Source: Mucilaginibacter gotjawali (GTDB lineage: Bacteria > Bacteroidota > Bacteroidia > Sphingobacteriales > Sphingobacteriaceae). Taken from it: a DNA stretch of 64,000 nt. Below are positions 34,342-57,534 of this stretch, piece after piece (position 1 is the stretch's first letter; every line of letters starts with the position of its first letter). A program made the position numbers and the translations under genes. The notes under the pieces were generated by a model. The model did not search any database and was not told the origin of the DNA. It worked only from the letters and a program-made list of their open reading frames with translations. The stretch covers positions 1,116,001-1,180,000 of the forward strand of contig NZ_AP017313.1 in the NCBI RefSeq assembly GCF_002355435.1. The letters are read 5' to 3'.

Positions 34342-34391
34342 TTTGCTAAATCGATTTATTTGATTTTTATTTGCTAAATCAATTTAGCCAT
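34342..34391 (+). promoter_or_regulatory. Two LacI-type operator sites at the SGNH esterase promoter
   Basis: Site 1 (34342-34363): TTTGCTAAA - TCGA - TTTA, half-complete on the right. Site 2 (34370-34391): TTTGCTAAA - TCAA - TTTAGC, a near-perfect palindrome reaching the ATG at 34390. If TTTG of site 1 is the -33 box, TTTATTTG (34366-34373) stands at -7 with a 20-base spacer, so both boxes are covered by operators. The rest of the 34041-34341 gap shows no gene I trust. Confidence 0.68.
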
Positions 34392-35802
34392 GAAATTAAT
34401 TTCATTTTTCTTCCGCCGTTTGTGCTTTGTTTCTATTATCCTGGTTGTCGTTTCCGGTTTAGCCGGCGGACAACAAGTATCGCCGTTTAAAAATGGCGAC
34501 AAGATTATATTTATGGGCAACAGCATCACCGATGGGGGCCATTACCATTCGTATATCTGGTTGTACTATATGACACATTTTCCCAATATGCGGATCAGTG
34601 TCGTGAATGCAGGAATCGGTGGCGATGTTTGCAAACAAATGCTGGAGCGCCTTAACGATGAAGTGTTTGCAAAAAAACCTACCATAATGACGTTTACTTT
34701 TGGTATGAATGATACCGGGTACCAATATTATGCGCCCGAAAAAGCCGACTCGGCTTATAACGCAAAGGTGAATGAGTCGTTAAAATATTTTAAATTGGTT
34801 GAGGCTGAACTGAACAAACATCCGGAGGTAAAAAAAATAATGCTGGCATCTCCTCCGTATGACGAGACCTCTAAAATAAAATTTGCGCCTTTGGTAAAAA
34901 AGAACGCAGCCATATTACGAATTGTAGCCGAACAGCAAAAAGCCGCTAAACGCAATAACTGGGGCTTTATTGATTTTAATACCCCGATGCTCCGGATCAA
35001 CCAGCGCGGGCAGCAAACCGACAGCACATTTACCATGGAATCGCCAGATCGCATCCACCCAGGCAACGACGGGCAAATGGTAATGGCCTATACTTTTTTG
35101 AATGCCCAGGGCCTTGCCGGCAGCAAAGTAGCAGCTATATCCATTAATGCTAAGGATAAAAAGGTGGGCAAAGCGGAAAATTGCAGTTTATTAAATTTAA
35201 CCGCAGGCGGCAGTCATATTTCTTTTGATTACCTCGCAAAGTCCCTTCCATACCCGCTGGATTCTGTCCCGGGGGGATTTGGTAAGCCTGCACGGTCACA
35301 ATCGGATGCATTAAAATTGATCCCTTTTACAAATGAATATAACCAGGAGATGTTAGCCATTAAGCAGCTTAACAGCGCAGCAACCTACCAGCTTAAAATT
35401 GATCATACAGTAATAGGTAACTGGACAGGCGCAGCGCTTGAAAAAGGCATTAACCTTGCCTTGATCTCCACGACGCCGGAATACCAGCAAGCGCTGGCCG
35501 TGATGCATTTGAACGAAGAAAGATGGTCGGTTGAGCGGCGATTGCGCGAATATTACTGGATCCAGTATTCCATTTTGAAACCTAAGGGATTATTGTTTAA
35601 CGATAGCGAATCAACCGCAGACTCGCTTCAGAAATATGGAAAAAAAGATTTTTTTGTGGCCGTTACTTTTCCAACGTATCAAAAAGCGCGGTTTAAAATA
35701 GTGCGCGATGCCTGGCAAAAAGAAATGGACCTGCTTACCGCCGAGATTTACCTGGTTAATAAACCTAAGTTACACCATTTTGAAATTACCTTATCACAAT
35801 AA
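34390..35802 (+). CDS. SGNH/GDSL-family carbohydrate esterase, paralogue 1
   Basis: 470 residues, exported (hydrophobic 12-27, cleavage near GLAGGQ). SGNH blocks are clear: block I MGNSITDGGHY with nucleophile S45, block II AGIGGDVC, block III GMNDTG, block V D220-R-I-H223. The family deacetylates or deacylates glycans. After about residue 245 there is a C-terminal domain of about 200 residues without a known name, shared with paralogue 2 (ERRLREYYWIQY, DAWQKEMDLLTAEIYLVNKP). The start codon abuts operator site 2, so the leader is very short. It lies 2 bases from the next gene. Confidence 0.88.
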   Translation: MKLISFFFRRLCFVSIILVVVSGLAGGQQVSPFKNGDKIIFMGNSITDGGHYHSYIWLYYMTHFPNMRISVVNAGIGGDVCKQMLERLNDEVFAKKPTIMTFTFGMNDTGYQYYAPEKADSAYNAKVNESLKYFKLVEAELNKHPEVKKIMLASPPYDETSKIKFAPLVKKNAAILRIVAEQQKAAKRNNWGFIDFNTPMLRINQRGQQTDSTFTMESPDRIHPGNDGQMVMAYTFLNAQGLAGSKVAAISINAKDKKVGKAENCSLLNLTAGGSHISFDYLAKSLPYPLDSVPGGFGKPARSQSDALKLIPFTNEYNQEMLAIKQLNSAATYQLKIDHTVIGNWTGAALEKGINLALISTTPEYQQALAVMHLNEERWSVERRLREYYWIQYSILKPKGLLFNDSESTADSLQKYGKKDFFVAVTFPTYQKARFKIVRDAWQKEMDLLTAEIYLVNKPKLHHFEITLSQ

Positions 35803-35804
35803 AA

Positions 35805-38417
35805 ATGTTACCCGATAGATCAAAAAAGTTTAGATATACCTGTTTTTGGTTTGTTTTGCTGGCTTTACTTCCCTTAAAAAAAGCCGGTGCACAAACCGCG
35901 TGGTATATTGACGGTTACCATGGGGGGATTTACGGAGGCTACCCCGAAAATTATACCCGATTCCTGGTAGATATGCTCAATAAGAACCCCGAATGGAGCA
36001 TTAACCTGGAGGTAGAGCCCGAAACCTGGGATAAGGTGCAGAAGGACGATCCTGAGGCATATGCTCAATTTAAAGCACTCGCTGCCAACCAAAGTGCGGG
36101 AGGGCGAATTGAATTCATAAATCCTGCTTATGCACAAAGCTATTTATATAATATATCGGGCGAGAGTATTATCAGGCAATTCAGTTATGGTATGGCTAAG
36201 ATAAAAGCACATTTCCCCAATGCATCGTTTACCACCTACTCCTCCGAAGAACCTTGTTTTACCAGTGCACTACCACAGATCTTAACTTCTTTTGGGTTTA
36301 AATTCGCGTCGCTTAAAAATCCCAATACCTGTTTTGGTGGTTATGCGGCCGCACACGGCGGCGAGTTGGTTACCTGGATTGGCCCTGATGGCACAGGAAT
36401 TACCACCGCGCCCCGTTACGCCATGGAAAGCCTTTCAAACAAATCAACCTGGCAAACCATAGGCTGGGAAAATTCACCCAATTATGTAAATGCTGCTTAC
36501 GCGGCCGGGATAAAGCACCCCATAGGCATGACCATACAGGATGCAGGATGGAAAGGCGGCCCCTTTATGGGTACCGGGCCCCGGTTCGGCGTAAAAACCG
36601 TTTATACCACCTGGCGCAATTATTTTGAGAATGTAAGCCCAAAAGACACTAAACCAGCCTGGAAAGCAACGCAGGAAGATTTGCTGGTGAACCTGGTTTG
36701 GGGATCGCAGGTAACGCAAAAAATAGCCCAGCAAGTTAGGGTCGCCGAAAATAAGATCATCATCGCCGAAAAAATGGCGTCGCTGGCAAGTATTTATGCC
36801 GGTGAGGTTTACCCCACAGCAGCGCTCGATTCAGCATGGCGCACACTTTTGTTGGCTCAGCACCACGATAGCTGGATAGTGCCTTATAACGGGAAACCCG
36901 GCGCAACCTGGGCCGATAAAGTGCGGGAGTGGACTAATTATACCAATAGGATATGCGACAGTTTGATAAGGGTTTCCTCAACAAGCGCACCTGGTGTAAA
37001 ATATGATGGGGGCGCTTACGTAAGGGTTTATAATACGGTGGCTGTTAAACGAAATGAATTGGTATCGATGATCATTCCGGCAGCACTTGCCAATAAGCAA
37101 ATCAATGTAACCGGCAGCAGGGGCGAGCTAATTGCAAGTCAAATATTGAATGCCCCCGGCCTTGCTGCAAAAAAAATAATATTTAATGCGTCGGTGCCAT
37201 CTTTGGGTTATAATACCTACCATCTGCAGGCGGGCAACCATGTGGCCTTTAAAGGCGCAACAATAAAAAAAACGGGTAACGGGATGTATGATATTGAAAC
37301 AGATACATACGCTATCTTATTAGATCCTGCTAGAGGCGGGGTAATAAAAAGCCTGGTTGCCAAAAAGTTGAATAATAAAGAGTTTGTAGATAAAGCTAAT
37401 CCGAGAGGCTTTAACGAATTACGCGGCAATTTTTATAAGGCCGGGGGTTTTAAATCGAGCGAAGACCATCCGGCATCGGTTCAGGTGGTTGAAAACGGGC
37501 CCTTGCAGCTCGTGATCGCTATTAAAGGCACTATTGATAACTATCCTTTCACCCAATACCTTACCCTGGGCCAGGGCCAGCAAAGAATTGACCTGAAGGT
37601 GGAAATTGATTGGAAAGGTAACCCGGGAATCGGCGCTGATACCCCGCCGGGTACCTATAAATGGCAAAACCCGGTGAAAGCCTTTTATGATGACAGGTAT
37701 AAATTGCTGACCCTGTTCCCTTTGAATCTAAAAGGGCAAAAGGTTTATAAAAACGCGCCTTTTGACGTAACCGAAAGCCACCTTACCAATACCTTTTATA
37801 CAACCTGGGACAGTATAAAAAATAATGTGATACTGAATTGGGTAGATGTTACCGACCAGCAGGGAAAATACGGACTGGCTTTGTTTACCGATCATACAAC
37901 CAGCTACACCCATGGCGGTAAATTCCCATTGGGGCTTGATGTTCAGTACTCGGGCATGGGTTTATGGGGCAGAGATTATACAATTGATGGCCCAACCACA
38001 ATTAGTTACTCCATATTGCCGCATGCGGGCAAATGGGACAAAAGCCATGTATGGACAGCAGGAACCAAATGGGCAGCACCATTGACGGCAGCTTTTACCG
38101 GGCAAAATACCGGGCAAAAAAAACCTTCAGCATCATTCATCTCGATGGATAAACCCGGATTCGAGATCAGTTCGATGACTTGCAAAGGGGACACTCTTTT
38201 TGTGCGGTTATTCAACGCGGAGGGCGACGCATTACCCGGAAAAATTATAGTGGATGGTAAAATTGCAAAAGCGCAGTTGGTTAATTTGAACGGTGCGGTG
38301 TTGGGCGATCTTAAAACAGAACCGGCTGTAAGCAAAAAGACCGCCATAAACGTGGCTATGCCGAGGTTTGGCATCAGGACTTTAAAATTAACGGGCGTAC
38401 ACGCGTCAAAATATTAA
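35805..38417 (+). CDS. Divergent GH38-like alpha-mannosidase-type protein
   Basis: 870 residues with a signal peptide ending near KKAGAQ. The N-terminal region begins WYIDGYHGGIYGGYP (D36, H39), resembling the GH38 metal-site strand. LLLAQHHDSWIVPYNG (H353-H354-D355) matches the GH38 H-H-D signature near the second metal ligand. The usual first H-x-D is missing, and the nucleophile region is not canonical (TYSSEEPCF, E148/E149). The C-terminal 450 residues are beta-rich, like the GH38 C-terminal domain (DTYAILLDPARGGVIKSLVA). Flanking GH92 and esterase genes fit alpha-mannan removal. Activity is uncertain; it could be a new branch. Confidence 0.7.
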   Translation: MLPDRSKKFRYTCFWFVLLALLPLKKAGAQTAWYIDGYHGGIYGGYPENYTRFLVDMLNKNPEWSINLEVEPETWDKVQKDDPEAYAQFKALAANQSAGGRIEFINPAYAQSYLYNISGESIIRQFSYGMAKIKAHFPNASFTTYSSEEPCFTSALPQILTSFGFKFASLKNPNTCFGGYAAAHGGELVTWIGPDGTGITTAPRYAMESLSNKSTWQTIGWENSPNYVNAAYAAGIKHPIGMTIQDAGWKGGPFMGTGPRFGVKTVYTTWRNYFENVSPKDTKPAWKATQEDLLVNLVWGSQVTQKIAQQVRVAENKIIIAEKMASLASIYAGEVYPTAALDSAWRTLLLAQHHDSWIVPYNGKPGATWADKVREWTNYTNRICDSLIRVSSTSAPGVKYDGGAYVRVYNTVAVKRNELVSMIIPAALANKQINVTGSRGELIASQILNAPGLAAKKIIFNASVPSLGYNTYHLQAGNHVAFKGATIKKTGNGMYDIETDTYAILLDPARGGVIKSLVAKKLNNKEFVDKANPRGFNELRGNFYKAGGFKSSEDHPASVQVVENGPLQLVIAIKGTIDNYPFTQYLTLGQGQQRIDLKVEIDWKGNPGIGADTPPGTYKWQNPVKAFYDDRYKLLTLFPLNLKGQKVYKNAPFDVTESHLTNTFYTTWDSIKNNVILNWVDVTDQQGKYGLALFTDHTTSYTHGGKFPLGLDVQYSGMGLWGRDYTIDGPTTISYSILPHAGKWDKSHVWTAGTKWAAPLTAAFTGQNTGQKKPSASFISMDKPGFEISSMTCKGDTLFVRLFNAEGDALPGKIIVDGKIAKAQLVNLNGAVLGDLKTEPAVSKKTAINVAMPRFGIRTLKLTGVHASKY

Positions 38418-38458: not shown

Positions 38459-38489
38459 TTTGCTAAATCGTTTTTTTTATCTAATTTGG
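38459..38489 (+). promoter_or_regulatory. Promoter with overlapping LacI-type half-operator upstream of GH92-1
   Basis: TTTG at 38459-38462 serves both as the -33 box and as the first bases of TTTGCTAAA - TCGT - TTT. After a 19-base spacer, TAATTTGG (38482-38489) matches TAnnTTTG in 7 of 8 positions. The leader to the ATG at 38591 contains a small hairpin (GAGCCAC/GTGGCT). Confidence 0.65.
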
Positions 38490-38590: not shown

Positions 38591-40903
38591 ATGAACGTAA
38601 AGTTATTTGTTTCCGCCATGTATGTATTACTGACGGTGGGGGTCGCGAAAGCGCAAACGCCGGCGGATGAGGTAAACCCATTTATCGGCGCCAGCACCAG
38701 TACTGCCGATGCAGGCGTTTATCATGGCCTTGGCAAAACTTTCCCCGGGGCGGCAACGCCTTATGGCATGGTGCAGCTTAGTCCGAATACCATTACCGGC
38801 GGCGACAATGGCTCAGGTTATAGTTACGAGCATACAAGTATCGAGGGGTTTGCTTTTACGCAGATGAGCGGGATAGGCTGGTTTGGAGACCTTGGTAACT
38901 TTTTGGTGATGCCCACTACGGGAAAGTTAAAAACTTCTGCCGGAAGCCTGGATCATCCCGAAGAGGGCTACCGGTCTCGTTATACAAAAAGTAGCGAAAC
39001 AGCAAAGGCAGGGTATTATGCTGCCTATTTGAGTGATTATAAAGTTAAAGCTGAGATGACTGCTGCACCACACAGTGGTATATTAAGGTTTACCTTCGCC
39101 CAAAATAAACAAGCCCGGATCCAGATCGACCTGGCCCGCAGGGTTGGCGGTACCTCAACGCTGCAATACGTAAAGGTAGTAAATGACCATACGATTGAAG
39201 GCTGGATGAAGTGTACGCCAGACGGGGGCGGATGGGGCGATGGCGCCGGTCACGCCGAATACACTGTATATTTTTATGCTGAATTCAGCAAACCCTTAAA
39301 TAACTTTGGGGTATGGAGCGCCGATATACCTGACAGCTGGAGCCGGAAACGTGAAGATGTGGAAAGCGCAAAATATCAGCAGCAGATAGCAAATGCAGCC
39401 ATCCTAAAGGGCGTGAAAGAAAAAGAAGGTAAGCACCTGGGATTTTATACGGAGTTTGCTGCTAACGATAACGAGCAGGTATTGGTAAAATCAGGCATCT
39501 CCTTCGTTAGCGTAAGCGGCGCTAAAAATAATCTTGAATCGGAAATACCGGGATGGGACTTTGATGCAGTGCACCGGCAGGCCCGCAATTTGTGGAACAA
39601 GGCCCTGTCCAAAGTAAACATACAAGGCGGCACGCCGGAAGAACGCATTGTTTTTTATACCGCCCTTTACCATACCATGATCGATCCGAGGATCATCAGC
39701 GATGTTGATGGCCATTATCCCGGTGGTGACGGTAAAGCACATTTTGCGGCCAACTTTAACAAACGCACCATATTTAGCGGATGGGATGTTTTCAGGAGCC
39801 AGATGCCTTTACAAACCATCATCAATCCATCATTGGTGAATGACCTCGTCAACTCCCTGGTAAGTCTCGCCCACGAAAAGAAAAAAGATTACCTGGAACG
39901 CTGGGAAATGATGAACGCCTACAGTGGTTGCATGATCGGTAACCCCGCCGTGTCGGTAATTGCCGATGCTTATGCCAAAGGCATCCGTAATTATGACGTA
40001 GGCCAGGCCTATCGCCTTTGTATCAACTCGGTCAATAAGTTTGGTAACGGCGACAAAGGGTATACACCGGAACCGCTAAGCATCTCGTACACGCTGGAGT
40101 ATGCCTATGCTGACTGGTGCGCATCGCAGTTTGCAAAGTATCTTCATAAACCGTTGGATGAAAAGAAATATGCCGGTCGCAGTGAAGATTATAAAAATAT
40201 TTTTGATAAAGACAAAGGCTGGTTCAGGCCGAAAGATAACGAGGGCAACTGGTTGCCATGGCCGGATTCCGGCAGGCTAAAACAATGGTACGGCACTATC
40301 GAAAGCAACCCATACCAGCAGGGGTGGTTTGTTCCGCAGGATGTGGATGGCATGGTAAAATTAATGGGCGGCAAAGAAAAAGTTATTGCCGACCTGGATA
40401 ACATGTTTGAAAAGACACCCGATAACATGATGTGGAACGATTATTTTAACCAGGCCAACGAGCCGGTGCATCATGTTCCGTTTTTATATAACCGCATGGG
40501 CGCGCCATGGCTAACCCAAAAGTGGAGCCGGGCCATTTGCCGCAGGGCCTACAAAAACTCGGTAGAGGGGCTGGTGGGTAATGAAGATGTTGGCCAGATG
40601 TCGGCCTGGTATGTATTGGCTGCCAGTGGCCTGCACCCGGTTTGCCCCGGAGACCCAAGGCAGGAGATCACCAGCCCGGTATTTAATAAAATAACCCTTA
40701 AGCTTGATCCCAAATACGCTACAGGAAAATCATTTACTATCCTGGCGCACAACAACTCGGCCGCCAATATTTATATCCAAAGTGCCAAACTAAATGGCAA
40801 ACCGTATAATAAATGCCATATCGACTACAAGGATATTGCCAGGGGCGGAATACTTGAATTAACTATGGGTGATACACCAAATAAAAACTGGGGAACAAAA
40901 TAA
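38591..40903 (+). CDS. GH92 alpha-mannosidase-type enzyme, copy 1
   Basis: 770 residues, exported (MNVKLFVSAMYVLLTVGVAKAQ). GH92 enzymes are calcium-dependent exo-alpha-mannosidases. The N-terminal beta-sandwich opens VNPFIGASTSTADAGVYHGL and FPGAATPYGMVQLSP. The (alpha/alpha)6 domain has the catalytic-acid motif QANEPVHHVPFLYN with E624, and NEDVGQMSAWYVLAASGLHPV with E665/D666. The catalytic acid is not preceded by the common G (Q-A-N-E-P). The linkage preference is not deducible. SGNH paralogue 2 follows after 4 bases, in one operon. Confidence 0.94.
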   Translation: MNVKLFVSAMYVLLTVGVAKAQTPADEVNPFIGASTSTADAGVYHGLGKTFPGAATPYGMVQLSPNTITGGDNGSGYSYEHTSIEGFAFTQMSGIGWFGDLGNFLVMPTTGKLKTSAGSLDHPEEGYRSRYTKSSETAKAGYYAAYLSDYKVKAEMTAAPHSGILRFTFAQNKQARIQIDLARRVGGTSTLQYVKVVNDHTIEGWMKCTPDGGGWGDGAGHAEYTVYFYAEFSKPLNNFGVWSADIPDSWSRKREDVESAKYQQQIANAAILKGVKEKEGKHLGFYTEFAANDNEQVLVKSGISFVSVSGAKNNLESEIPGWDFDAVHRQARNLWNKALSKVNIQGGTPEERIVFYTALYHTMIDPRIISDVDGHYPGGDGKAHFAANFNKRTIFSGWDVFRSQMPLQTIINPSLVNDLVNSLVSLAHEKKKDYLERWEMMNAYSGCMIGNPAVSVIADAYAKGIRNYDVGQAYRLCINSVNKFGNGDKGYTPEPLSISYTLEYAYADWCASQFAKYLHKPLDEKKYAGRSEDYKNIFDKDKGWFRPKDNEGNWLPWPDSGRLKQWYGTIESNPYQQGWFVPQDVDGMVKLMGGKEKVIADLDNMFEKTPDNMMWNDYFNQANEPVHHVPFLYNRMGAPWLTQKWSRAICRRAYKNSVEGLVGNEDVGQMSAWYVLAASGLHPVCPGDPRQEITSPVFNKITLKLDPKYATGKSFTILAHNNSAANIYIQSAKLNGKPYNKCHIDYKDIARGGILELTMGDTPNKNWGTK

Positions 40904-40907
40904 AAAA

Positions 40908-42293
40908 ATGAAAAAACTATTTATTATCCTGCTTGGCAGTTTATTTTTAACTAACACTTACGCCCAAAAAGCAGCGCCCTTTCGCGCGGGCGACCGGATT
41001 GCTTTCGTGGGTAACAGCATCACCGACGGTGGTCATTACCATTCCTATATCTGGCTGTATTATATGACGCATTTTCCGAATATGCGTATCACCTGTTTTA
41101 ACGCAGGCATCGGCGGTGATGCCGTGAACCAGATATTTGACCGTTTTGACGATGATGTTTTCGGGAAAAAACCAAATGTTTTAACCCTTACCTGGGGAAT
41201 GAATGACAGCGGTTACTTTGAATGGTACCGCCCGGATGGCCAGGTTATTATGGATAAGCGGATCGATGGCTCGTACAAGTATTACGGTATGCTGGAAGAT
41301 AAATTAAAGAACCGCCCGGATATTAAAAAGATCATCATCCTGGGTTCGCCGTATGACGAAACTACCAAAAGCAATCCTAAAAATCTTTACCCTAAAAAAA
41401 GCATAGCATTTGGAAAGATCATTGATTTCCAGGCCGCGTCTGCAAAGAAAAACGGCTGGGATATGGTTGATTTCTTTCACCCGATGCTGGCGATTGAGCA
41501 ACGTGAGCAAGCGAAAGATTCACTATTCAGCTTAACACCCAATGATCGTGTACACCCCGACAATGACGGGCACCTGGTGATGGCCTATTTGTTTTTAAGG
41601 GCACAGGGGCTTGATAATAAACCGGTGGCAGATATTAGCCTGGATGCGGCCCGGAAAACATTTTTAAAAGCTTCAAATTGCCGGGTATCAGCACTTTCCG
41701 TTACTGCCGATTCAGTAGCATTCAATTACCTGGCAAATTCGCTGCCCTATCCGCTGGATACCATTCCGCGTGGCTGGGGTAACCGCAAAAAGCAATCCGA
41801 AGCATTAAAACTGGTGCCGTTTACCAACGAATTTAACCAGGAAATGCTCACAGTAAAGCACCTTAAAAGCAGCAACTACAGCCTGCTGATCGATGGCGAA
41901 CTGATGGGCAGCTGGAGCAGCCAGCAATTCGCTGACGGCATAAACCTGGCTGAGATCACCTCTACCCCGCAATACCAGCAGGCTATTCAAATAAGGGAGT
42001 TGAATGAAGAGCGCTGGGACATTGAGCGGCGGTTAAGGAATTATATGTGGATGGAATACGACTTCCTGAAAGGGAAAAATATGCTTTATAAAGATAATAA
42101 CGCTGCGATGGACTCTGTAAAAAAATATGCACAGAAAGATCCTTTCGTAAACGGAAACAAGGATAACTACTCAAGGGCCCGGTATAAAAGCCTGCGTGAT
42201 GCATGGCAAAAAGAAATGAACGCATTAACAGACGAAATTTATGCCATCAACAAGCCCCAAACACACCGTATTACTTTAATACAAGTGAAATAA
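40908..42293 (+). CDS. SGNH/GDSL-family carbohydrate esterase, paralogue 2
   Basis: 461 residues from ATG 40908; an earlier in-frame ATG at 40869 lies inside the GH92 gene and disrupts the signal peptide (MKKLFIILLGSLFLTNTYAQ). Catalytic blocks are VGNSITDGGHY with S37, AGIGGDAV, GMNDSG and D213-R-V-H216. The C-terminal region is shared with paralogue 1 (NSLPYPLDTIPRGWG against KSLPYPLDSVPGGFG; ERRLRNYMWMEYD). The two copies, 5 kb apart, probably arose by duplication and then diverged, perhaps to treat different acyl positions. Confidence 0.88.
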   Translation: MKKLFIILLGSLFLTNTYAQKAAPFRAGDRIAFVGNSITDGGHYHSYIWLYYMTHFPNMRITCFNAGIGGDAVNQIFDRFDDDVFGKKPNVLTLTWGMNDSGYFEWYRPDGQVIMDKRIDGSYKYYGMLEDKLKNRPDIKKIIILGSPYDETTKSNPKNLYPKKSIAFGKIIDFQAASAKKNGWDMVDFFHPMLAIEQREQAKDSLFSLTPNDRVHPDNDGHLVMAYLFLRAQGLDNKPVADISLDAARKTFLKASNCRVSALSVTADSVAFNYLANSLPYPLDTIPRGWGNRKKQSEALKLVPFTNEFNQEMLTVKHLKSSNYSLLIDGELMGSWSSQQFADGINLAEITSTPQYQQAIQIRELNEERWDIERRLRNYMWMEYDFLKGKNMLYKDNNAAMDSVKKYAQKDPFVNGNKDNYSRARYKSLRDAWQKEMNALTDEIYAINKPQTHRITLIQVK

Positions 42294-42313
42294 TACTGAA
42301 AAGAATAGAAACG

Positions 42314-43198: not shown

Positions 43199-43229
43199 TT
43201 TGCTAAATCGTTTTTATAATGTAATTTAG
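43199..43229 (+). promoter_or_regulatory. Promoter with overlapping LacI-type half-operator upstream of the Sus operon
   Basis: TTTG (43199-43202) starts TTTGCTAAA - TCGT - TTTT. After 19 bases comes TAATTTAG (43222-43229), 7 of 8 to TAnnTTTG. The arrangement is almost identical to 38459-38489, base for base, across the first 17 positions. Confidence 0.68.
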
Positions 43230-43319: not shown

Positions 43320-43341
43320 TTTGCTAAAACGATTTTTCAAT
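43320..43341 (+). promoter_or_regulatory. Second LacI-type operator in the Sus operon leader
   Basis: TTTGCTAAA - ACGA - TTTTTCAAT: left arm complete, right arm weak, and the LacI-like central CG kept. It lies 121 bases downstream of the first site and 50 bases before the susD-like ATG, a spacing that could support looping or roadblock. Confidence 0.6.
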
Positions 43342-45173: not shown

Positions 45174-45204
45174 AAATATTGATGAATTTAACCAGGAATT
45201 AAGT

Positions 45205-45654: not shown

Positions 45655-45677
45655 TCCAGACAAAAAATACAAACTAT

Positions 45678-46712: not shown

Positions 46713-46843
46713 AATACCTAGGTTAAAAGTAATAATCTAATTAACAGTATTTTACAATAATTGCAACAGCCTTTGTACTATAATAATGCAAGGTATGACG
46801 GCCCAAATTATGTTCAATAAATTAACAATTTAAATCTGATTCT

Positions 46844-49800: not shown

Positions 49801-49993
49801 AAATGCTGAAGTCGGGTACACCTTTCCGGTTAGTGTAACACAAAAACTCAGGCTGGCAGGTTTAAGGGTATTTGTTAACGGCGAAAACCTGGCAACGCTG
49901 GCGGGCCTTAAAGGCATTGATCCGGAAGAAACATCAATGACCGCATACCCTGTTCAACGGGTGATTAATGCAGGTATTACAGTTAAACTTTAA
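46844..49993 (+). CDS. SusC-like TonB-dependent outer-membrane transporter, copy 1
   Basis: 1049 residues, exported (hydrophobic 13-30, cleavage near AVAQQ). A carboxypeptidase-regulatory-like domain covers about 42-115 (ASGIVLDEYSQPLKGVNIRI). The plug follows and the 22-strand barrel begins about residue 275. The plug is divergent: the usual V-V-V-G-Y-G TonB-box region reads NIDVLYGTQKK, and the normal G-A-N-G-V-I-L-V-T-T-K-R-G reads NSSRPIVLVTTKRG. It ends with the expected aromatic-rich strand (RVINAGITVKL). It imports oligosaccharides together with the SusD encoded 26 bases downstream. Confidence 0.94.
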   Translation: MLNCYSQKYLTGIIMLMLLVFNISFAVAQQDTTVKATVHPGWASGIVLDEYSQPLKGVNIRIKGNAVFTTSDAAGQFQIDAAPGTTLVFSYTGHLVRELTIKDNSKITVKLDDNYLRNPQNIDVLYGTQKKESELGAISTVYTNQLTTTPASLFVYAFPGQLAGVYTQQQSGFTSFHTASISSPSVIGQNLVNTASNNNSTSDNSEMMVTVRGQTPITVIDGVQREISSIDPESIESISVLKDGLSTILMGVNSSRPIVLVTTKRGEVGKPRITFTAETGLQKSLGLPTPLPAYQYAYLINETLTSDSKLPQYSAADFNAYRDHTDPTGHPDVNWFKTILTDYAPMTQYKLNVNGGSNIAKYSISLGYFDQAGIFNTASEVPYNTNNDLSRYIINSDVGVQVNKNLNVDLQLFGRVQTTTEPGGNNGGGYTSVLNSLYNTPNNAYPVRNPDGSFGGSIIGGNTGPYSNNLLSQTEYSGYIQNLTDDILANLDLNYNLNSVLKGLTAKLKGNLSYQSITALNRSLQNPSFILNKDSTYSQYGAIVAQSNVFNTVYTSRQSFGQAALNYERQFGKNQVNAIALYDSKSLVTNYDLPEVVTDIALKGTYNYDGKYFAEAAVNRSGNNRYPPGHQFGTFYAAGLGWQMGKESFIKDNFSWIDSWKWRGTYARTGNGNIAQQASLYYAYQQTYSNNNFNKQYQIGTGYVTNYYWYEDALANPYITWESADKIDFGMDISLFKDKFLITADYYHDKYSNVLGLRGNSIALLGAPYPLENIGINLYQGAELSLTYQDHTGNFNYFVTGNINLQASKIVYQDELNSPYPWTRQTGNPVNGVIYGYTAQGLYQTAQDAATSPHIAGYVPQAGDIKYKDLNGDGVINQFDESAIGGTKPIVFYGLNPGFSYKGFSLSVIIQGVTNRQIYVGYNNIATQFGLDYSTINQQAYTGATGRWTPETASIATLPRLAVSAYNNNGLTSSFYVRSGNYLRIKNAEVGYTFPVSVTQKLRLAGLRVFVNGENLATLAGLKGIDPEETSMTAYPVQRVINAGITVKL

Positions 49994-50019
49994 GTGGTAA
50001 TTATTAAATACTAGAGTAA

Positions 50020-51768
50020 ATGAAAAATCATATAAATAAGATACTGCCAGCGATAATACTACTATGTGTTGTTTATGGGTGTAAAAAGTATGAACAATTT
50101 CCGGTTGATAAGATCACTGCAAACTATGTGTTCGATCCGCGCGATTCAGCCGGGGCCAATGCGCAGTCGTTCCTCTACGGGATATATGCGATAGTACCCA
50201 ATGGCAATAACCGGGTAGGCAGTGATTACCTTGACGCAGCTTCGGATGATGCGGTGTCATCCCAAACGGGTACCGCACAGGTGACCTTAATGTCAACCAA
50301 TGCGGCAACATCACAATCGTTCCCCTCTACCGAGAACCCATGGGAGGGAACAAACCCGACCGGTACGCCCAATTCATTTTGGGCCGGTATACGCTCGGCA
50401 AATGAATTTATCAATAATATTGGGGTTGTTCCGGTTAAAGGCACGTTGCCAAACGGCGTGGGTACCCGTTGGGTATGGCAAAGCGAAGCACGTTTTTTAA
50501 GGGCGTACTTTTATTTTGAGCTGGTGAAGCGCTATGGCGGGGTACCGCTGCTGGGGAATAAGGTTTATAATGTTAATGATGCGATAACCGTACCACGCAG
50601 CAGCTTTTCAGATTGTATCACCTATATAGTGAATGAATTGAACGCTGTAAAGGATAGCCTGATCACTGCCCCGTTGGCTATCTCCAGCGACAATTTCCGG
50701 ATTACCAAAGGGGCTGCTTTGGCTTTAAAAGCCCGCGTTTTGTTATATGCCGCCAGCCCATTGTTCAATGGTGGAAACATTGATGCAGCCAACCCGCTCA
50801 CCGGTTATACAAGTTACGATATAAACCGCTGGACACTGGCCGCTAACGCCGCGCGTGACGTAATTAGTTTAGGCACCTACCAGCTGGATACCAGCTACCG
50901 CGATATCTTTTTAACGCAGAATAATTTGGAAAGGATAATGATAAGGCCGGGTGGCAATAGCATCAGTGTCGAAACGTACAATGGTCCTGTAGGTTTCCAG
51001 GCGGCCTCGGCGGTGGGCAACACAAGCCCTACGCAGGAATTGGTTAATTCATTCCCGATGCAAAACGGACTGGCTATTACTGATCCGTCGTCAGGCTTTA
51101 ACCCATCCGATCCTTACGCAGTAAATTCAACGCCAAAGCGCGATCCACGATTAGCATGGACTATTCTTTATAATGGGCACACCTGGCTCAATACCTCCGT
51201 GCAAACTTACGAAGGGGGCCAGAGCAAACCCGATGTGAATACCCAGCAAACGGTTACAGGTTACTATATGCGTAAATTTATGGGCCTTTTTGAAAATACC
51301 ACCACTTATAGCAGCCATTCGTCAGACTGGGTTGTATTCAGGTATGCCGAAGTATTATTAACGCTTGCCGAAGCCGAAAACGAAGCTGCAGGTTCGCCGC
51401 CGGCTGATTGTTACGCCCAGCTTTATGCCTTACGAAAAAGAGCGGGGATTGACCCGGGGGCAGGGATCACTTACGGCGTGCCGCAAAACATGAGTACTGC
51501 CGAGATGCGGGCTTTTATACAAAATGAATGGCGCATTGAATTTGCTTTTGAAGAGCACCGCTACTTTGATATTAAAAGATGGAAACTGGCGCAAACGCTC
51601 ATGAATCAACCAAGGACAGGGGTGTCTATTGTAAAAACAGGTTCAAACTTAACATTCAACCCGATTAACGTGTTGAGTACAACGTTTACCACCAAGCAAT
51701 ATTTTCACCCTATCCCATACAACGAAATACTAAAAGATCCGAATCTGAAACAAAACCCGGGTTGGTAA
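50020..51768 (+). CDS. SusD/RagB-like surface glycan-binding lipoprotein, copy 2
   Basis: 582 residues. The lipobox is CVVYGC (Cys21). The N-terminal scaffold has WQSEARFLRAYFYFELVKRY and GGVPLL. KGAALALKARVLLYAASPLFNGG and the C-terminal RKRAGIDPG...FIQNEWRIEFAFEEHRYFDIKRWK are SusD hallmarks, as is the end YFHPIPYNEILKDPNLKQNPGW. It pairs with the SusC 26 bases upstream. It shares the LKARVLLYAASPLFNG block with copy 1, but overall the two are clearly diverged paralogues. Confidence 0.95.
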   Translation: MKNHINKILPAIILLCVVYGCKKYEQFPVDKITANYVFDPRDSAGANAQSFLYGIYAIVPNGNNRVGSDYLDAASDDAVSSQTGTAQVTLMSTNAATSQSFPSTENPWEGTNPTGTPNSFWAGIRSANEFINNIGVVPVKGTLPNGVGTRWVWQSEARFLRAYFYFELVKRYGGVPLLGNKVYNVNDAITVPRSSFSDCITYIVNELNAVKDSLITAPLAISSDNFRITKGAALALKARVLLYAASPLFNGGNIDAANPLTGYTSYDINRWTLAANAARDVISLGTYQLDTSYRDIFLTQNNLERIMIRPGGNSISVETYNGPVGFQAASAVGNTSPTQELVNSFPMQNGLAITDPSSGFNPSDPYAVNSTPKRDPRLAWTILYNGHTWLNTSVQTYEGGQSKPDVNTQQTVTGYYMRKFMGLFENTTTYSSHSSDWVVFRYAEVLLTLAEAENEAAGSPPADCYAQLYALRKRAGIDPGAGITYGVPQNMSTAEMRAFIQNEWRIEFAFEEHRYFDIKRWKLAQTLMNQPRTGVSIVKTGSNLTFNPINVLSTTFTTKQYFHPIPYNEILKDPNLKQNPGW

Positions 51769-51803
51769 TAAATCATAGTCATTTAACTATTAAATAAGCA
51801 GTT

Positions 51804-54800
51804 ATGAGAAAATTAATACTTTTCTTTCTTGTCATCTTCAGTATCCTTCCGGCATTGCTATATGCGCAAAACAGAGTAGTTTCGGGGGTAGTGAGAGACG
51901 ACGGAGGAGTTTTGCCCGGGGCGTCGGTTGTTGAAAAAGGTATGCCCGGCAACGGCGTTACCACCAATATAAAAGGCCGGTTTACATTAACCTTAAAAGG
52001 CAGTTCAAATATTATTGTAGTACAATTTATTGGCTATGCACGGCAGGAAGTAAATGTTGCCGGCAAAGTTGACAATATCGATATTACCTTAAAATCAAAC
52101 AGCCAGGATCTTAACGAAGTGATTGTGGTGGGTTTTGGTAAAACAAAGCGTATTACAACCACCGGATCGGTTAGTACAATTTCGGCCCAGGATATCCGGA
52201 CCGTTCCAACGGCAAACGTGCAAAACACGCTGTCAGGCAAAATACCGGGATTTTTTTCCCAGCAAAGCTCGGGGCAGCCTGGTAAAGATGCTTCTGACTT
52301 TTTTATCCGTGGCGTAAGCTCACTTAACCCGGCAGGAAATCAACCATTGATCATTGTTGATGACATTGAATATACCTATGATCAGCTGCAGCAGATCAAT
52401 GTAAACGAAATAGAAAGTATCAGCGTTTTAAAAGATGCGGCTACTACTGCTATCTATGGTATAAAAGGAGCCAACGGTGTTTTAGTGGTAACCACCCGGC
52501 GCGGAAAAGCCGGTAAACCCCAGGTTAACTTCCGGAATGAAGCGGGGGTGCAGGCGCCTACAATTACGCCAAAATTCCTGAATGCCTACCAATCGGCGGT
52601 ATTGATCAATCAAGCCGAAACAAACGACGGGACATTGCCTGATAAGCTCACTTTCAGCCCGAACGACCTGGTATTATACCAAAATCATTCCGATCCTTAT
52701 GGGCACCCTGACGTAAACTGGTATGATAAGATCTTCAATAAATACAGCTACCAGGCCAATTCAAACCTGGACATATCCGGCGGTACCGATCAGTTAAAGT
52801 ATTTTATTTCGGGCGGTATATTGCAGCAAAACGGATTGGTGAAACATTTTACCGATCCTGTGGCAAACATCAATAACAACTACGAATTCAGCCGGTATGA
52901 TTTCAGGTCGAACCTGGATTTAAAGGCAAATAAAACACTTGATATCAGGCTGGATGTAACCACCCGTTTTTCGAGTACAAATTCGCCAAACGAATCTGCT
53001 TCAAGCACCCTTTCCGACGTTTATAATTTTGCACAGGAAACCCCGTTTACAGCGCCATTTTTAAACCCGAACGGCAGCTACGCTTATGCATATTCAAATT
53101 TCAACCCCAGCCATTTGCCCACCCTGAATGCGCGGCTGGCTACAGGCGGATATCAAAACGAAAAGCGAACTGATTATAACGTGTTGTTTAACATTAAGCA
53201 AAACCTTGATGCAATTACCAATGGCTTATCGGTAACCGGCCGGGTAGCCTATTCAAGCACGGAAGCTTTTACCCGTTCTACCGGAAATTATGGCCCTATT
53301 CCAACGTACCATTACGATCCTGCAACTGGTCAAACTATATTAAACCCTGCAGGCAGTTATGTATTTCCGCAGATCTATTATGCAGGTAACGTAAATATCT
53401 ATACTACCAATGTAAACCTGCAGGCATTTGCCAACTACGACCGTACTTTTAACGGTAAAAACCATGTTACCGGGTTGGTATTGTTAAATCAATCGTCCCA
53501 AACCTATGATGCCAATGCGTTTCTTGATGCTACATCGGTAGGCGTTCCCGCTAAATTCAGGGGGATCTCGGCCAGGGGAACATATGATTATGCCGGGAAA
53601 TATCTGTTCGATATCAATGCCGCGTATAATGGAACAGACCGTTTCGCCGCAAATCACCGGTATGGCTGGTTTCCGGCGGTGAGCGTAGGGTATAACATTA
53701 CAAAAGAAGATTATTTCAAAAAAATAACCTCAGTTTTCAGTTTGCTCAAAATCAGGGGATCATATGGAATTGTGGGCTCGGATGTGGCCCCGGGTAATAC
53801 CTACATCTATAGTCAATACTATAATCAAAATTCCAACCAGTATAATTTTGGCACATCGCCCAATTACTATAATCAATATTACGAAGGTGCGCTTTCAAAC
53901 GCCAACGTAGTGTGGGAGCGGCAAAAAGAACTTGACCTTGGCCTGGATATGAACTTATTTAAAGATCATTTATCTTTTACGGCAGACTATTTCCATAACG
54001 TTCGTTACGACCAGTTGATCATACCCAATAATGTGCCGCTTGTTTTAGGCGTAGGTTTGCCGGCTATCAACCTTGGCCGTACCCAAAATAATGGGTTCGA
54101 CGGGCAGATCGGCTACCATAATAGCATAAGGGACGTTCAGTATGGTGTTAATTTTGTGTTTTCGTATGCAAAGAACAAGATTCTTTTTGAAAGCGAAGCG
54201 CAAGCCGCATACCCATGGCTCGCACGCACCGGGCATTCTATTAACCAACCGTTTGGCTATCATTCACTGGGTTATTATACACCTGGCGATGTTGCTGCTA
54301 TTAACGCGTATAAAGCAGGGCACAGTGGCAGTAATGCAGGTGACCCGATTGCTGTACCAGATAATGGCGAGACAATACAGGCAGGGGATCTGAAATACCA
54401 GGATTTGAATCATGATGGCTATATTAATGTTTTTGACCAAAAGGCCATCGGTCATCCTAATTTACCAAATACAACGCTGGGTTTAAATTTAACTGCCGGC
54501 TACAAGGGTTTTAGCGCCAGTGTATTGTTGCAGGGAGCGTTTAATTATAGCTTTATGATTACCGGTACCGGAATTGAGCCGTTTCAAAGCCAATTTCAGC
54601 CCATTCATTTGACAGCATGGACGCCGGAAAATGCATCAAGCGCGCAATTTCCGCGGTTGACTACCAACCCGCAAACCATCAATAGCCCAACCTACTATCC
54701 GTCAGACTATTGGCTTTTAAACGCCTATTATATCCGGCTGAAAACAGTGGATATCGGCTACCAGTTCCCGAGCAAGTCATTGCCGTTTCACCTGGATAAC

Positions 54801-54947
54801 GCAAGGGTTTACCTGAGCGCCTATAACCTGTTTACCTGGGATAACTATAAACGCTACCAGCAGGATCCGGAAATACAGACCAATACTGCCGGCGACGCTT
54901 ATATCAACCAGCGCGTGATCAACTTTGGTATACAATTAGGATTTTAA
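51804..54947 (+). CDS. SusC-like TonB-dependent outer-membrane transporter, copy 2
   Basis: 1047 residues with signal MRKLILFFLVIFSILPALLYAQ. The regulatory-like domain is at about 24-97 (VVSGVVRDDGGVLPGASVVE). The TonB-box-like segment LNEVIVVGFGKTKR and the plug (FFIRGVSSLNPAGNQPLIIV, IYGIKGANGVLVVTTRRG) are canonical. The barrel ends QRVINFGIQLGF. No susD gene follows it; the operon closes with a terminator. Its natural partner by order would be the susD-like gene at 43392. Confidence 0.95.
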   Translation: MRKLILFFLVIFSILPALLYAQNRVVSGVVRDDGGVLPGASVVEKGMPGNGVTTNIKGRFTLTLKGSSNIIVVQFIGYARQEVNVAGKVDNIDITLKSNSQDLNEVIVVGFGKTKRITTTGSVSTISAQDIRTVPTANVQNTLSGKIPGFFSQQSSGQPGKDASDFFIRGVSSLNPAGNQPLIIVDDIEYTYDQLQQINVNEIESISVLKDAATTAIYGIKGANGVLVVTTRRGKAGKPQVNFRNEAGVQAPTITPKFLNAYQSAVLINQAETNDGTLPDKLTFSPNDLVLYQNHSDPYGHPDVNWYDKIFNKYSYQANSNLDISGGTDQLKYFISGGILQQNGLVKHFTDPVANINNNYEFSRYDFRSNLDLKANKTLDIRLDVTTRFSSTNSPNESASSTLSDVYNFAQETPFTAPFLNPNGSYAYAYSNFNPSHLPTLNARLATGGYQNEKRTDYNVLFNIKQNLDAITNGLSVTGRVAYSSTEAFTRSTGNYGPIPTYHYDPATGQTILNPAGSYVFPQIYYAGNVNIYTTNVNLQAFANYDRTFNGKNHVTGLVLLNQSSQTYDANAFLDATSVGVPAKFRGISARGTYDYAGKYLFDINAAYNGTDRFAANHRYGWFPAVSVGYNITKEDYFKKITSVFSLLKIRGSYGIVGSDVAPGNTYIYSQYYNQNSNQYNFGTSPNYYNQYYEGALSNANVVWERQKELDLGLDMNLFKDHLSFTADYFHNVRYDQLIIPNNVPLVLGVGLPAINLGRTQNNGFDGQIGYHNSIRDVQYGVNFVFSYAKNKILFESEAQAAYPWLARTGHSINQPFGYHSLGYYTPGDVAAINAYKAGHSGSNAGDPIAVPDNGETIQAGDLKYQDLNHDGYINVFDQKAIGHPNLPNTTLGLNLTAGYKGFSASVLLQGAFNYSFMITGTGIEPFQSQFQPIHLTAWTPENASSAQFPRLTTNPQTINSPTYYPSDYWLLNAYYIRLKTVDIGYQFPSKSLPFHLDNARVYLSAYNLFTWDNYKRYQQDPEIQTNTAGDAYINQRVINFGIQLGF

Positions 54948-54993
54948 TGCCGCATAGCGTATAAGAGATAAATAAAGTAAAATAACCTTTCAC

Positions 54994-55048
54994 AGCTTTT
55001 TAAATTATGGGGGACTAACCATTCTCCTGATTTAAAAAGCTTTTTTTT
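54994..55048 (+). terminator. Rho-independent terminator of the Sus operon
   Basis: AGCTTTTTAAAT (54994-55005) pairs with ATTTAAAAAGCT (55030-55041), with an inner GGGGGA/TCTCC pairing and a terminal run of T (55041-55048). It begins 47 bases past the SusC stop. Confidence 0.82.
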
Positions 55049-55063
55049 GTATAATTTAGAGGT

Positions 55064-56233
55064 ATGTTCCCAACTGTAGGCGATTTGCTGCGCTATCTTT
55101 TTCATGTCAACATTACTTTCCCGGTTCAAACCTTTGGTTTTTTTGTCGCCCTGTCTTTCTTTTTAACTTATTTCGTTTTTGTAGCTGAATTTAAAAGGAA
55201 AGAAGCAGACGGCCTTATCTCCGCCTACAAAGAAGAAGAAATTATTGGGTTGCCCGCTTCTTTTTTGGAGTTGCTGGTGAATGGTTTGCTGGGGTTTGTG
55301 CTGGGGTTCAAGATATCGGGGGCGGTTATTAATTATAAAGTAATTAAAATCGACCCTGTCGCGTACATTTTTTCGGTGCAGGGTAATTTATGGGGCGGGT
55401 TACTGTTTGCGGCGGCCTTTGTTTTATGGATTTATACCGACCGGAGAAAGCAGCTGTTGCCAAAGCCCAAAATAGTTGAAACGGTAGTTCACCCTTACCA
55501 GTTAATGGGTTACCTGGCGTTTGCTTTAGGTTTTTGGGGATTTATCGGCGCTAAATTATTTAATACCGCAGAAAACCTTCAGCTGTTTATGCGGCATCCT
55601 ATAGACACCTTGTTTTCAGCCAATGGGTTCACCTATTATGGCGGGCTGATATTCGGCTCGGTTACTTACTTATATATCTGCCATAAAAAGGGGATGAAAC
55701 TGGTACACCTTGCAGATATTGGTTCGCCGGGGATGATGCTGGCCTATGGTATCGGGCGGATTGGATGCCATTTGGCCGGCGACGGAGACTGGGGGATTGT
55801 AAACAACCACCCCAAACCCGCGTTGCTTGCCTGGCTGCCCGATTGGATGTGGTCGTTTAAATATCCGCACAATACCATCGACGCGGGTATAAAAATAGAT
55901 GGCTGCTTTGGCGACCATTGCGAGCAATTGCGCGGCGGAGTTTACCCGACATCATTTTATGAGGTAGTGATTTGCATTGGTTTATTTGGATTGATGTGGC
56001 TGTTACGCAAACGCATCAAAATTCCGGGATTGATGTTTTATTCCTTCCTGGTGTTAAGCGGTATCGAAAGGATCCTGATCGAAATAATTCGCGTTAACGA
56101 GCGCTATGCTATTTTAGGCCTGCAGTTAACCCAGGCAGAAATGATCTCGATAGGGATGATCGCAGGCGGCATTGTCGGCATCTCCTCAATTATTTACCGG
56201 CAAATAAAAAATGGCGGGCGTCTGCATCTTTAA
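55064..56233 (+). CDS. lgt: Prolipoprotein diacylglyceryl transferase
   Basis: 389 residues, multi-pass inner-membrane enzyme transferring diacylglycerol to the lipobox cysteine of prolipoproteins. The Lgt signature appears as AYGIGRIGCHLAGDGDWG at about residues 226-243. The conserved Y-P-T-S-F-Y-E and the late ERILIEIIRVNERY are also present. About seven hydrophobic segments are visible. The length is at the long end, as in other Bacteroidota. It lies directly after the Sus terminator. Whether this is the organism's only Lgt cannot be told from the window. Confidence 0.9.
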   Translation: MFPTVGDLLRYLFHVNITFPVQTFGFFVALSFFLTYFVFVAEFKRKEADGLISAYKEEEIIGLPASFLELLVNGLLGFVLGFKISGAVINYKVIKIDPVAYIFSVQGNLWGGLLFAAAFVLWIYTDRRKQLLPKPKIVETVVHPYQLMGYLAFALGFWGFIGAKLFNTAENLQLFMRHPIDTLFSANGFTYYGGLIFGSVTYLYICHKKGMKLVHLADIGSPGMMLAYGIGRIGCHLAGDGDWGIVNNHPKPALLAWLPDWMWSFKYPHNTIDAGIKIDGCFGDHCEQLRGGVYPTSFYEVVICIGLFGLMWLLRKRIKIPGLMFYSFLVLSGIERILIEIIRVNERYAILGLQLTQAEMISIGMIAGGIVGISSIIYRQIKNGGRLHL

Positions 56234-56271
56234 AAATAGTTAAATTTACAATGTCTCTTTTCCAATAATCA

Positions 56272-57471
56272 ATGAAAAAGCTTTCTTTAATAATTCTTTC
56301 CGGGGTGTTTGTTTTCTGTTTTACCGGTGTAAAAGGCCAGGCTGTGAGCGATAAAAAGACGGCGGACCTGGAGCATATCAATTTTACCGTTGAACCTGCG
56401 CCGGAATGGTCCGGTCTTCTGAAACGGGATTCGGGTTGGTTTGGCGGTGATGGTATTTATACGATGCGGCTTAATGGTGTGCGTGGCCCTGCCGCGACTC
56501 CGAATGATAAAATACTCTTCCTTTTTAGTGACAGTATGATCGGCGAGATCAGGGATCACACCATGCTGCCTGGCTATAAAATGATCCATAATTCTGTAGC
56601 GGTGCTAAGCGGAGACAAGCCGGTTGCCCAAAAAATGCTTTTTTCATGGGCAAAGGATACAGCAGGACAGGCGGAATCAATTTTTGTTCCGCATACGCCA
56701 AAAACACAAAATGGCGACTATTACTGGCTTGGCGATGGCTTTGTTAACCAGGAGCTCGGTAACGCTATTTACATTTTTGGTTACCGGGTACGCAATGTGA
56801 GTGATGGGGCATTCGGATTTAAGGAAGTGGGCAATACGCTGATAAAAATACCGGCAGGCAGCGTGTCGCCCTACTTAAACCAGCAGCAGATGGATACCCC
56901 CTTTTTTCTCACGGACAGTGCAGGTGACAGTGGATCTTTTGGCGCGGGAATTTACGTGAACACAAAGAAAGCGGGTGCGCTACACCCCGATGGCTATATT
57001 TATGTATATGGCGTAAGAGGTATGGCAAAAAGACTGATGATTGCCAGGGTATTGCCAAAAGATTTTGAACATTTTGAAAAATGGACCTATTGGGATGGCG
57101 CCAAATGGGTGACTGAAATAAATAAAGTTGCCGATGTTACGAAAGATGTATCCAACGAGCTGAGCCTGACGGCGCTGCCCGATGGGCGCTATGCGCTGGT
57201 TTTCCAGTTGGATGGCATGACTACAACGGTAGGCATGAGGATAGGGGCTACACCGTACGGGCCTTTCGGGCCGGTTATAAAATTATGGGACTGCAAGCCT
57301 GATTTGCTTAAAAACACTTATTTAGTTTACAATGCCAAGGCGCACCCTTCCATATCTAATCCGGGTGAATTGCTTATCAGTTATAACATCAATTCCACAG
57401 AATTTATAAAAGACTTAACTACGGACCCCAATTTATACCGGCCGCGCTTTATAAGGGTTAGATTTAAATAG
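56272..57471 (+). CDS. Exported beta-propeller-like protein (DUF4185/DUF5005-type)
   Basis: 399 residues, signal MKKLSLIILSGVFVFCFTGVKGQ. Repeated strands with aromatic and Asp turns suggest a five-bladed propeller of the GH43/GH117-like clan: GWFGGDGIYTMRLNG, ILFLFSDSMIGEI, IHNSVAVL, ELGNAIYIFGYRV, DGYIYVYGVRGMAKRLMIAR and YNAKAHPSISNPGELLISYN. The S-D-S and H-P-S motifs resemble annotated DUF4185 proteins (from memory). A glycosidase acting on the same glycan is possible. No catalytic pair is firmly assigned. Confidence 0.6.
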   Translation: MKKLSLIILSGVFVFCFTGVKGQAVSDKKTADLEHINFTVEPAPEWSGLLKRDSGWFGGDGIYTMRLNGVRGPAATPNDKILFLFSDSMIGEIRDHTMLPGYKMIHNSVAVLSGDKPVAQKMLFSWAKDTAGQAESIFVPHTPKTQNGDYYWLGDGFVNQELGNAIYIFGYRVRNVSDGAFGFKEVGNTLIKIPAGSVSPYLNQQQMDTPFFLTDSAGDSGSFGAGIYVNTKKAGALHPDGYIYVYGVRGMAKRLMIARVLPKDFEHFEKWTYWDGAKWVTEINKVADVTKDVSNELSLTALPDGRYALVFQLDGMTTTVGMRIGATPYGPFGPVIKLWDCKPDLLKNTYLVYNAKAHPSISNPGELLISYNINSTEFIKDLTTDPNLYRPRFIRVRFK

Positions 57472-57485
57472 TTTTCACAAAAAAA

Positions 57486-57534
57486 TTTGATAATTAAATC
57501 TTAAAACATATTTTTGCTAAAACAATTTAGCAAA
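57486..57534 (+). promoter_or_regulatory. Promoter with full LacI-type operator upstream of GH92-2
   Basis: TTTG (57486-57489), exactly 19 bases, TATTTTTG (57509-57516): a perfect Bacteroidota promoter. The operator 57513-57534 is TTTGCTAAA - ACAA - TTTAGCAAA with perfect 9-base arms. It shares its first four bases with the -7 box and covers the start of transcription. Confidence 0.8.

Follow-up and report, generated by a model that had tools for sequence, protein, structure and literature searches.

Eight operator-like sites precede the genes of a polysaccharide utilization locus (PUL) that lies in, and runs just beyond, a 64,000-nucleotide stretch of the Mucilaginibacter gotjawali genome (hereafter the window; G000:C1:1116001-1180000 of 6.34 Mb, with higher coordinates continuing the window numbering). 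These sites are very probably the operators of a LacI-family protein encoded in the same locus, which would repress the units of this alpha-mannoside-type PUL until a sugar inducer releases it. Binding by this protein, repression rather than activation, the inducer and the substrate are what we infer from the sequence. As we read the locus, a LacI repressor may serve here instead of a hybrid two-component or extracytoplasmic function (ECF) sigma switch.

Operator sites and a linked regulator gene

A first-pass annotation of the window had proposed one LacI-type operator common to the promoters of the locus, with sites at 34342, 34370, 38459, 43199, 43320 and 57513. All six are found at these coordinates, and the idea of a common operator is borne out by the sites themselves, by matrix scans and by co-occurrence with the regulator gene. 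Two further sites lie outside the window, before lacI and before a divergent GH78-like gene, and the site-bearing stretch measures ~38 kb (38.5 kb between 1150345 and 1188800), longer than the ~24 kb first proposed. The sites are as follows:

34342..34363, + strand: operator 1a, TTTGCTAAATCGATTTATTTGA; its TTTG is a candidate -33 box
34370..34391, + strand: operator 1b, TTTGCTAAATCAATTTAGCCAT; overlaps the SGNH1 start codon at 34390
38459..38480, + strand: operator 2, TTTGCTAAATCGTTTTTTTTAT; on a candidate -33 box
43199..43220, + strand: operator 3a, TTTGCTAAATCGTTTTTATAAT; on a -33 box, TTTG-19-TAATTTAG
43320..43341, + strand: operator 3b, TTTGCTAAAACGATTTTTCAAT; 3' of the promoter, 121 bases from 3a
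57513..57534, + strand: operator 4, TTTGCTAAAACAATTTAGCAAA; perfect palindrome
69103-69124: operator 5, before lacI; overlaps the final bases of the MFS gene
72785-72806: operator 6, before the GH78-like gene

Each transcription unit, as divided here, is preceded by at least one of these sites. The matrix derived from them has the consensus TTTGCTAAATCGATTTAGCAAA, a predicted operator in the form of an even palindrome with a central CG, the matrix being symmetric by construction. Every one of the eight sites scores at least 21 in leave-one-out scoring, against 16.7 (full matrix) for the next best match in 92 kb, and the scan of the interior of unit 3 found no site scoring 10 or more. The expected CG centre holds for four of the six sites in the window, whereas 34370 (TCAA) and 57513 (ACAA) carry CA; these two are also the best palindromes of the six. 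As for the full or partial right half, the sole perfect palindrome is 57513, with 34370 off by two bases and 43320 by three. Since operator 1b runs into the start codon, the SGNH1 transcript may have a very short leader.

The regulator, postulated by the first-pass annotation as a single unlinked LacI-type repressor, turned out to be linked. A LacI-family gene on the + strand (69200-70243; G000:C1:1185200-1186243) sits in the same locus, 5.2 kb past the window end, and is preceded by a site scoring 23.7. Its product (P0001, 347 residues) combines a LacI helix-turn-helix (HTH) domain (PF00356, residues 7-54, 35.0 bits against a cut-off of 27) with a C-terminal sugar-binding domain (PF13377, 6.8e-25; PF00532, 9.5e-21). 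The closest named relative found is a metagenome-assembled genome (MAG) of Mucilaginibacter whose LacI protein is 98% identical.

The earlier remark that neither a LacI nor a hybrid two-component or ECF gene is visible ceases to hold for LacI beyond the window end and stands, at the locus, for hybrid two-component and anti-sigma genes. Among the scanned locus proteins there is no hybrid two-component regulator, the nearest Reg_prop match lying at 899 kb, ~251 kb off, in a search that would miss hybrids with other sensor domains. FecR anti-sigma genes are absent from the locus, and the nearest of six in the genome is at 2.07 Mb, ~0.9 Mb away. The scanned locus proteins likewise include no ECF sigma factor, no genome-wide search for ECF sigma genes having been made. 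STN domains, the transducer part in ECF/anti-sigma systems, do not occur in the listed SusC matches of the locus.

Frequency of the motif

The window has 10 copies of the half-site motif TTTGCTAAA where 2.2 would be expected (100 shuffles gave at most 6), those at 6040, 8958 and 42367 lying inside open reading frames, and the 22-base palindrome with at most three mismatches occurs three times against 0.12 expected. Genome-wide, the core GCTAAAWYRWTTT gives 28 matches at 26 distinct places, 8 of which fall inside the 38.5 kb; from the rate outside, 0.11 would be expected there (Poisson 5e-13). The core is thus ~70 times denser in the locus than in the rest of the genome, a figure that is not independent because the core was derived from these same sites; the independent tests are those in other genomes. 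Equal frequency of the motif elsewhere, or a genome devoid of LacI-family regulators, had been named in the first-pass annotation as speaking against the operator; besides the ~70-fold density, we found six LacI-family genes.

For a held-out test, a matrix built from this genome only was applied to 20 same-genus loci picked by lacI (973 kb). It returned 114 sites scoring at least 15 and 83 scoring at least 19, compared with 5-9 and 0-1, respectively, in five local dinucleotide shuffles, and 82 of the 83 strong sites lie outside the genes matched to the locus. These relatives do not amount to independent species, since one of them (G015) is close (LacI 94% identical) and others are related among themselves.

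Gene content of the locus

The division into transcription units given below is inferred:

34390..38417, + strand: unit 1; SGNH/GDSL hydrolase (SGNH1) and GH38-type alpha-mannosidase
38591..43144, + strand: unit 2; GH92 (GH92a), second SGNH/GDSL hydrolase (SGNH2), esterase (EST)
43392..57471, + strand: unit 3; SusD, DUF5004, DUF4961, SusC-like, SusD, SusC, LGT-like protein, DUF4185
57646..64000, + strand: unit 4, part in the window; GH92 (GH92b), GH31, start of a third GH92
to 69110, + strand: unit 4 beyond the window; GH92, GH2, MFS
70327-72768, - strand: divergent GH78-like gene

A 327-base gap preceding GH31 carries no site; it could hold a promoter of its own or begin a further unit. Three GH92 genes and one GH38 gene suggest a substrate of the alpha-mannoside type, and the esterases that it is perhaps acetylated. 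The first SusC-like protein, for which carboxypeptidase-regulatory-like domains are the sole matches, is named as a candidate by its size and place. The arrangement at 43392-54947, in which SusD, DUF5004, DUF4961 and the SusC-like gene are followed by a second SusD-SusC pair, looks unusual to us. Across the 20 same-genus loci, which were chosen for holding a lacI relative, the MFS gene lies directly 5' of lacI in 19, all 20 have one or more GH92 genes nearby, and SusC/SusD homologues are nearby in 18.

Conservation and co-occurrence with the regulator

In the relatives, sites scoring at least 15 within 350 bases upstream (counting genes with at least 60% alignment and 40% identity) recur before GH92a (14/16), SusDa (14/15), GH78 (9/11) and GH2 (6/12). 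Genes assigned to the interior of units show few or none: EST, DUF5004, DUF4961, SusDb, SusCb, LGT and DUF4185 each have 0 of 13-18, GH31 has 0/1, and single or occasional sites precede MFS (1/19), GH38 (1/14), GH92c (1/2), SGNH2 (3/17) and SusCa (3/16).

Among 149 same-genus genomes, a LacI protein of at least 66% identity is present in 64 and the motif TTTGCTAAATCGWTTT in 62. Both occur together in 53 genomes, lacI only in 11, the motif only in nine, and neither in 76 (Fisher p 6e-20, with phylogeny ignored and the 66% threshold chosen after viewing the list). Three of the nine motif-only genomes (G141, G158, G055) are assemblies 70-85% complete. Co-occurrence reflects in part the shared presence of the locus and hence speaks for linkage of site and regulator, not for binding.

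The genome encodes six LacI-family proteins, so the sites might belong to another of them, for instance an unlinked paralogue, with the linked LacI incidental. The best such candidate, at 4313060, is 51% identical to the linked protein and has a similar DNA-binding domain. Yet no site scoring 14 or more lies in the 15 kb around it, its recognition helix reads AKST where the linked LacI has SKTT, and it is the linked lacI that keeps its place in the locus. We therefore regard control by another regulator as very unlikely, and the locus-encoded LacI as the protein that would bind.

Two kinds of variation among the relatives merit mention. Five genomes (G019, G013, G017, G043 and G006) have an extra site before the first SusC-like gene, mostly weaker (12.9-20.2), without counterpart in the window, and of the GCTAAAACGATATTT type in four of the five. 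In G026 and G048 some sites have CCG instead of TCG (GCTAAACCG), accompanied by small changes in the HTH, perhaps a shifted operator specificity; two genomes are too few to interpret.

Sites and promoters

According to the first-pass annotation the site coincides with a promoter box at four places; this is well established at 43199 and 57513, less so at 38459 and at 34342/34370. At 43199, exactly 19 bases separate the TTTG from a downstream TAATTTAG. At 57513, the TTTG of the site forms the end of a perfect -7 box:

57509..57516, + strand: -7 box TATTTTTG, perfect; 19 bases after the TTTG at 57486

The box that follows 38459 after 19 bases is the imperfect TAATTTGG, and at 34342/34370 both the -7-like box (TTTATTTG) and the gap (20 bases) deviate. 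At SusDa, 14 of 16 genomes, this one included, have the operator on the -33 box of a TTTG-19-TAnnTT(A/T)G promoter; the promoter pattern by itself occurs at 0.036 per kb in these loci.

The exact 19-base spacing between TTTG and a -7-like box at 43199 and 38459 would also be expected if TTTGCTAAA were merely part of the Bacteroidota promoter, that is, the -33 TTTG and its surroundings, and no operator at all. Sites are, however, also found in a -7 box (57513), 121 bases downstream of the first SusD site (43320) and near start codons, and remote copies mostly precede carbohydrate genes. Of 16 genomes, 12 retain the second SusD site (43320), 99-121 bases from its partner and in most cases lacking the TTTG, so that the constraint on the operator is separable from that on the promoter. 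This conservation, the co-occurrence of the motif with lacI across genomes and the remote sites before carbohydrate genes led us to reject a mere promoter element, which we consider highly improbable.

A close pair of operators, counted irrespective of the downstream gene, occurs in 37 of the 149 genomes, the reversed control giving one match in total. Start-to-start spacing in these 37 is 92-117, with 31 at 107-111; G000 (the genome studied here) and G049, at 121, lie outside that range. The ten distinct spacings showed no helical phasing (resultant 0.20-0.31), which speaks neither for nor against looping. Between operators 3a and 3b, in the SusD leader, stands AAACCAATTA (43259-43268), whose ACCAA is kept in 16 of 16 aligned genomes.

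How might such an operator work? Without inducer, a LacI dimer would sit on or near the unit promoters and block RNA polymerase. Under its control would be the SGNH-GH38, GH92-SGNH-esterase, SusD/SusC and GH92-GH31-GH92-GH2-MFS units, the GH78-like gene and perhaps lacI itself. The inducer could be a breakdown product present in the cytoplasm, for which mannose, a mannosyl-oligosaccharide or a phosphorylated form of either is the likeliest candidate. It would be imported via the MFS transporter and release LacI from the DNA. Promoter occlusion would apply, as far as the boxes indicate, at part of the sites.

Most LacI-family regulators are repressors, and the sites at 43199 and 57513 overlap promoter boxes, which is the usual position for repression; the sign of regulation as such is not readable from sequence. 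The protein could still act as an activator or dual regulator at some promoters, given that some sites cover no recognisable promoter box and that its DNA-binding domain is nearest to that of Cra, which represses some genes and activates others (PMC4052901; this and all other cited papers are used in excerpt). We deem such a role improbable, though less so than either the other-regulator or the promoter-element explanation, and prefer repression.

Observations that weigh against a repressor operator throughout

Several results count against the proposal that the linked LacI represses all units from these sites. At the level of the sites, 34342, 38459 and 43199 have the left half and centre intact, but their right half matches at just 4-5 of 9 bases. 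Upstream sites within 350 bases recur in just 9/17 relatives for SGNH1 and 8/18 for GH92b. The site before lacI reaches 15 in 4 of 20 relatives and 11 in 10 of 20; because of the former count, autoregulation is at most hinted at. As to promoters, the box arrangement of 57513 is confined to two of 19 genomes, our own and a close relative, and the strict operator-on-promoter pattern was found at GH92a in 0/17, at SGNH1 in 0/18 and at GH78 in 0/12 genomes, so that occlusion at these genes is argued from nearness only. On account of these promoter counts we hold the full statement, repression included, slightly less firmly, and give slightly more weight to activation.

Some Mucilaginibacter loci whose lacI is 66-69% identical carry few or no nearby sites: in L132 and L135 (66-67%) no site scoring 13 or more lies within 10 kb, and L136 has a single one (14.2). 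Moreover, 20 of the 149 genomes are discordant, 11 having lacI without TTTGCTAAATCGWTTT and nine the reverse. In a reversed-pattern control, finally, the loose core was not enriched genome-wide (28 vs 33) and the matrix gave 17 vs 14 in 14 named-contig loci. This control is unsound, as TTTGCTAAATCGTTTT reads almost the same in mirror image; of three loci inspected, two had all their reversed matches lying over forward candidates, and the third had no reversed matches. Dinucleotide shuffles were therefore used in its place.

Relation to known regulators

The first 66 residues of the regulator best match Cra/FruR in the PDB (1.5e-9 to 5.8e-9), followed by CcpA (2e-5), and the HTH aligns to Cra/FruR without gaps, whereas the alignment to CcpA needs a three-residue gap. 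Over its full length, the best PDB matches are 1rzr (Glucose-resistance amylase regulator, CcpA) and 7ff4 (LacI-family), with Cra lower. Thus, although the nearest DNA-binding domain in the PDB is that of gammaproteobacterial Cra/FruR, the whole protein is closer to CcpA-type regulators; its likeness to Cra is confined to the HTH, which speaks against orthology with Cra/FruR. The Cra boxes TGAAACGTTTCA and TGAATCGATTCA differ by one base per half from TAAAWCGWTTTA found here (PMC4521459, PMC8088597), and TAAAACGTTTTA, before scrAB of Enterobacter, is mentioned as a Cra-like box (PMC4521459). Cra is a global regulator of central metabolism in enterobacteria and regulates fruBKA in Vibrionales and Pseudomonadales (PMC4052901).

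Of 1303 LacI-family regulators, 1251 have an even palindrome as motif and 1173 a central CG; nearly 90% of the regulators are local and 72% autoregulated (PMC4052901). The present locus resembles such local sugar regulons in its linked regulator, even palindrome, mostly CG centre, near-start sites and possible autoregulation; what sets it apart is its size (~38 kb), its SusCD-type gene content, the number of site-bearing units (at least five), the pairing of operators and the probable existence of unlinked members. In Bacteroides thetaiotaomicron, alpha-mannosidases are likewise controlled together with SusC/SusD, yet the mannan loci are under HTCS_Man, a hybrid two-component regulator, or the GntR regulator ManR instead of LacI, while the LacI regulators KdgR, UxaR, UxmR and UxuR serve uronates (PMC3878776).

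LacI genes in PULs are of a known kind, since one is annotated in the xylan PUL of Gramella flava, likewise within a SusCD locus; the substrate differs, and LacI is known there by annotation, the excerpt giving no operator (PMC5306329). The locus described here is well supported as an additional LacI-controlled PUL. In the open-licence literature, we found no paper combining Mucilaginibacter, LacI and polysaccharide utilization, none combining LacI, operator, Pedobacter and polysaccharide, and, in the excerpts it offered, no description of this operator. A paper on TamL was rejected as precedent, as lacI is merely a tool in its excerpt.

Unlinked sites and other genera

From the matches listed, 20 of the places away from the lacI locus were chosen by motif, blind to genes, and ~6 kb around each was taken; three of them (L195, L196 and L197) are in genomes without a lacI of at least 66% identity. 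In 15 of the 20, the site precedes a homologue of a locus gene or a carbohydrate-related gene. Eleven adjoin a homologue of a locus gene or of the unlinked GDSL gene of the present genome (GH78-like in seven; GH31, GH92, GDSL and SGNH in one each), and four more adjoin other carbohydrate-related genes, namely two SASA acetylesterases, a DUF4185 protein and a SusC-like gene. The other five, for which a connection is doubtful or absent, comprise an ATPase with RadA/KaiC-like domains, one protein with NHL repeats, one with a sorting tail, a frame of 139 residues and a place whose site scores below 15.

In the present genome, a site scoring 25.7 at 940626 (L113:15626-15647), ~210 kb from the locus, ends 70 bases 5' of the start codon (ATG) of a gene for a GDSL esterase; a G025 homologue (L191; 72% identical) likewise has a site in front. 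The esterase gene is thus a probable unlinked member of the regulon.

Beyond Mucilaginibacter, the core lies within ~10 kb of lacI relatives (52-61%) in Pedobacter arcticus, two Desertivirga, Arachidicoccus, Ferruginibacter, Pontibacter and Fulvivirga. It was not found near the LacI relatives of a Hymenobacter (48%) and a Cyclobacteriaceae MAG (39%). Overall, 13 core places in nine loci compare with 0.25 in dinucleotide shuffles. The gene content of these lacI loci matches that of the present locus only in part.

Taken jointly, these data allow a wider proposal, which we make tentatively and would not yet bet on: in Mucilaginibacter and some related Bacteroidota, control of alpha-mannoside-type loci may have passed to a LacI repressor with a Cra-like HTH. 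Its operator would be built into promoters and doubled at SusD, and would also have come to stand before glycosidase and esterase genes scattered elsewhere in the genome. The outcome would be a dispersed regulon in which a gene and its operator can move together, as opposed to a self-contained PUL with a membrane sensor. With operator, regulator gene and predicted unlinked targets in hand, the whole polysaccharide regulon of a soil bacterium becomes directly testable, and searches with the operator can bring to light members in other genomes, such as the remote GH78-like genes, that would be overlooked from gene neighbourhood alone.

One further site in the present genome, scoring 22.1 at G000:C1:5217159 (L019:4160-4181), lies between an ECF sigma gene on the minus strand and the gene of a 418-residue protein without Pfam match.

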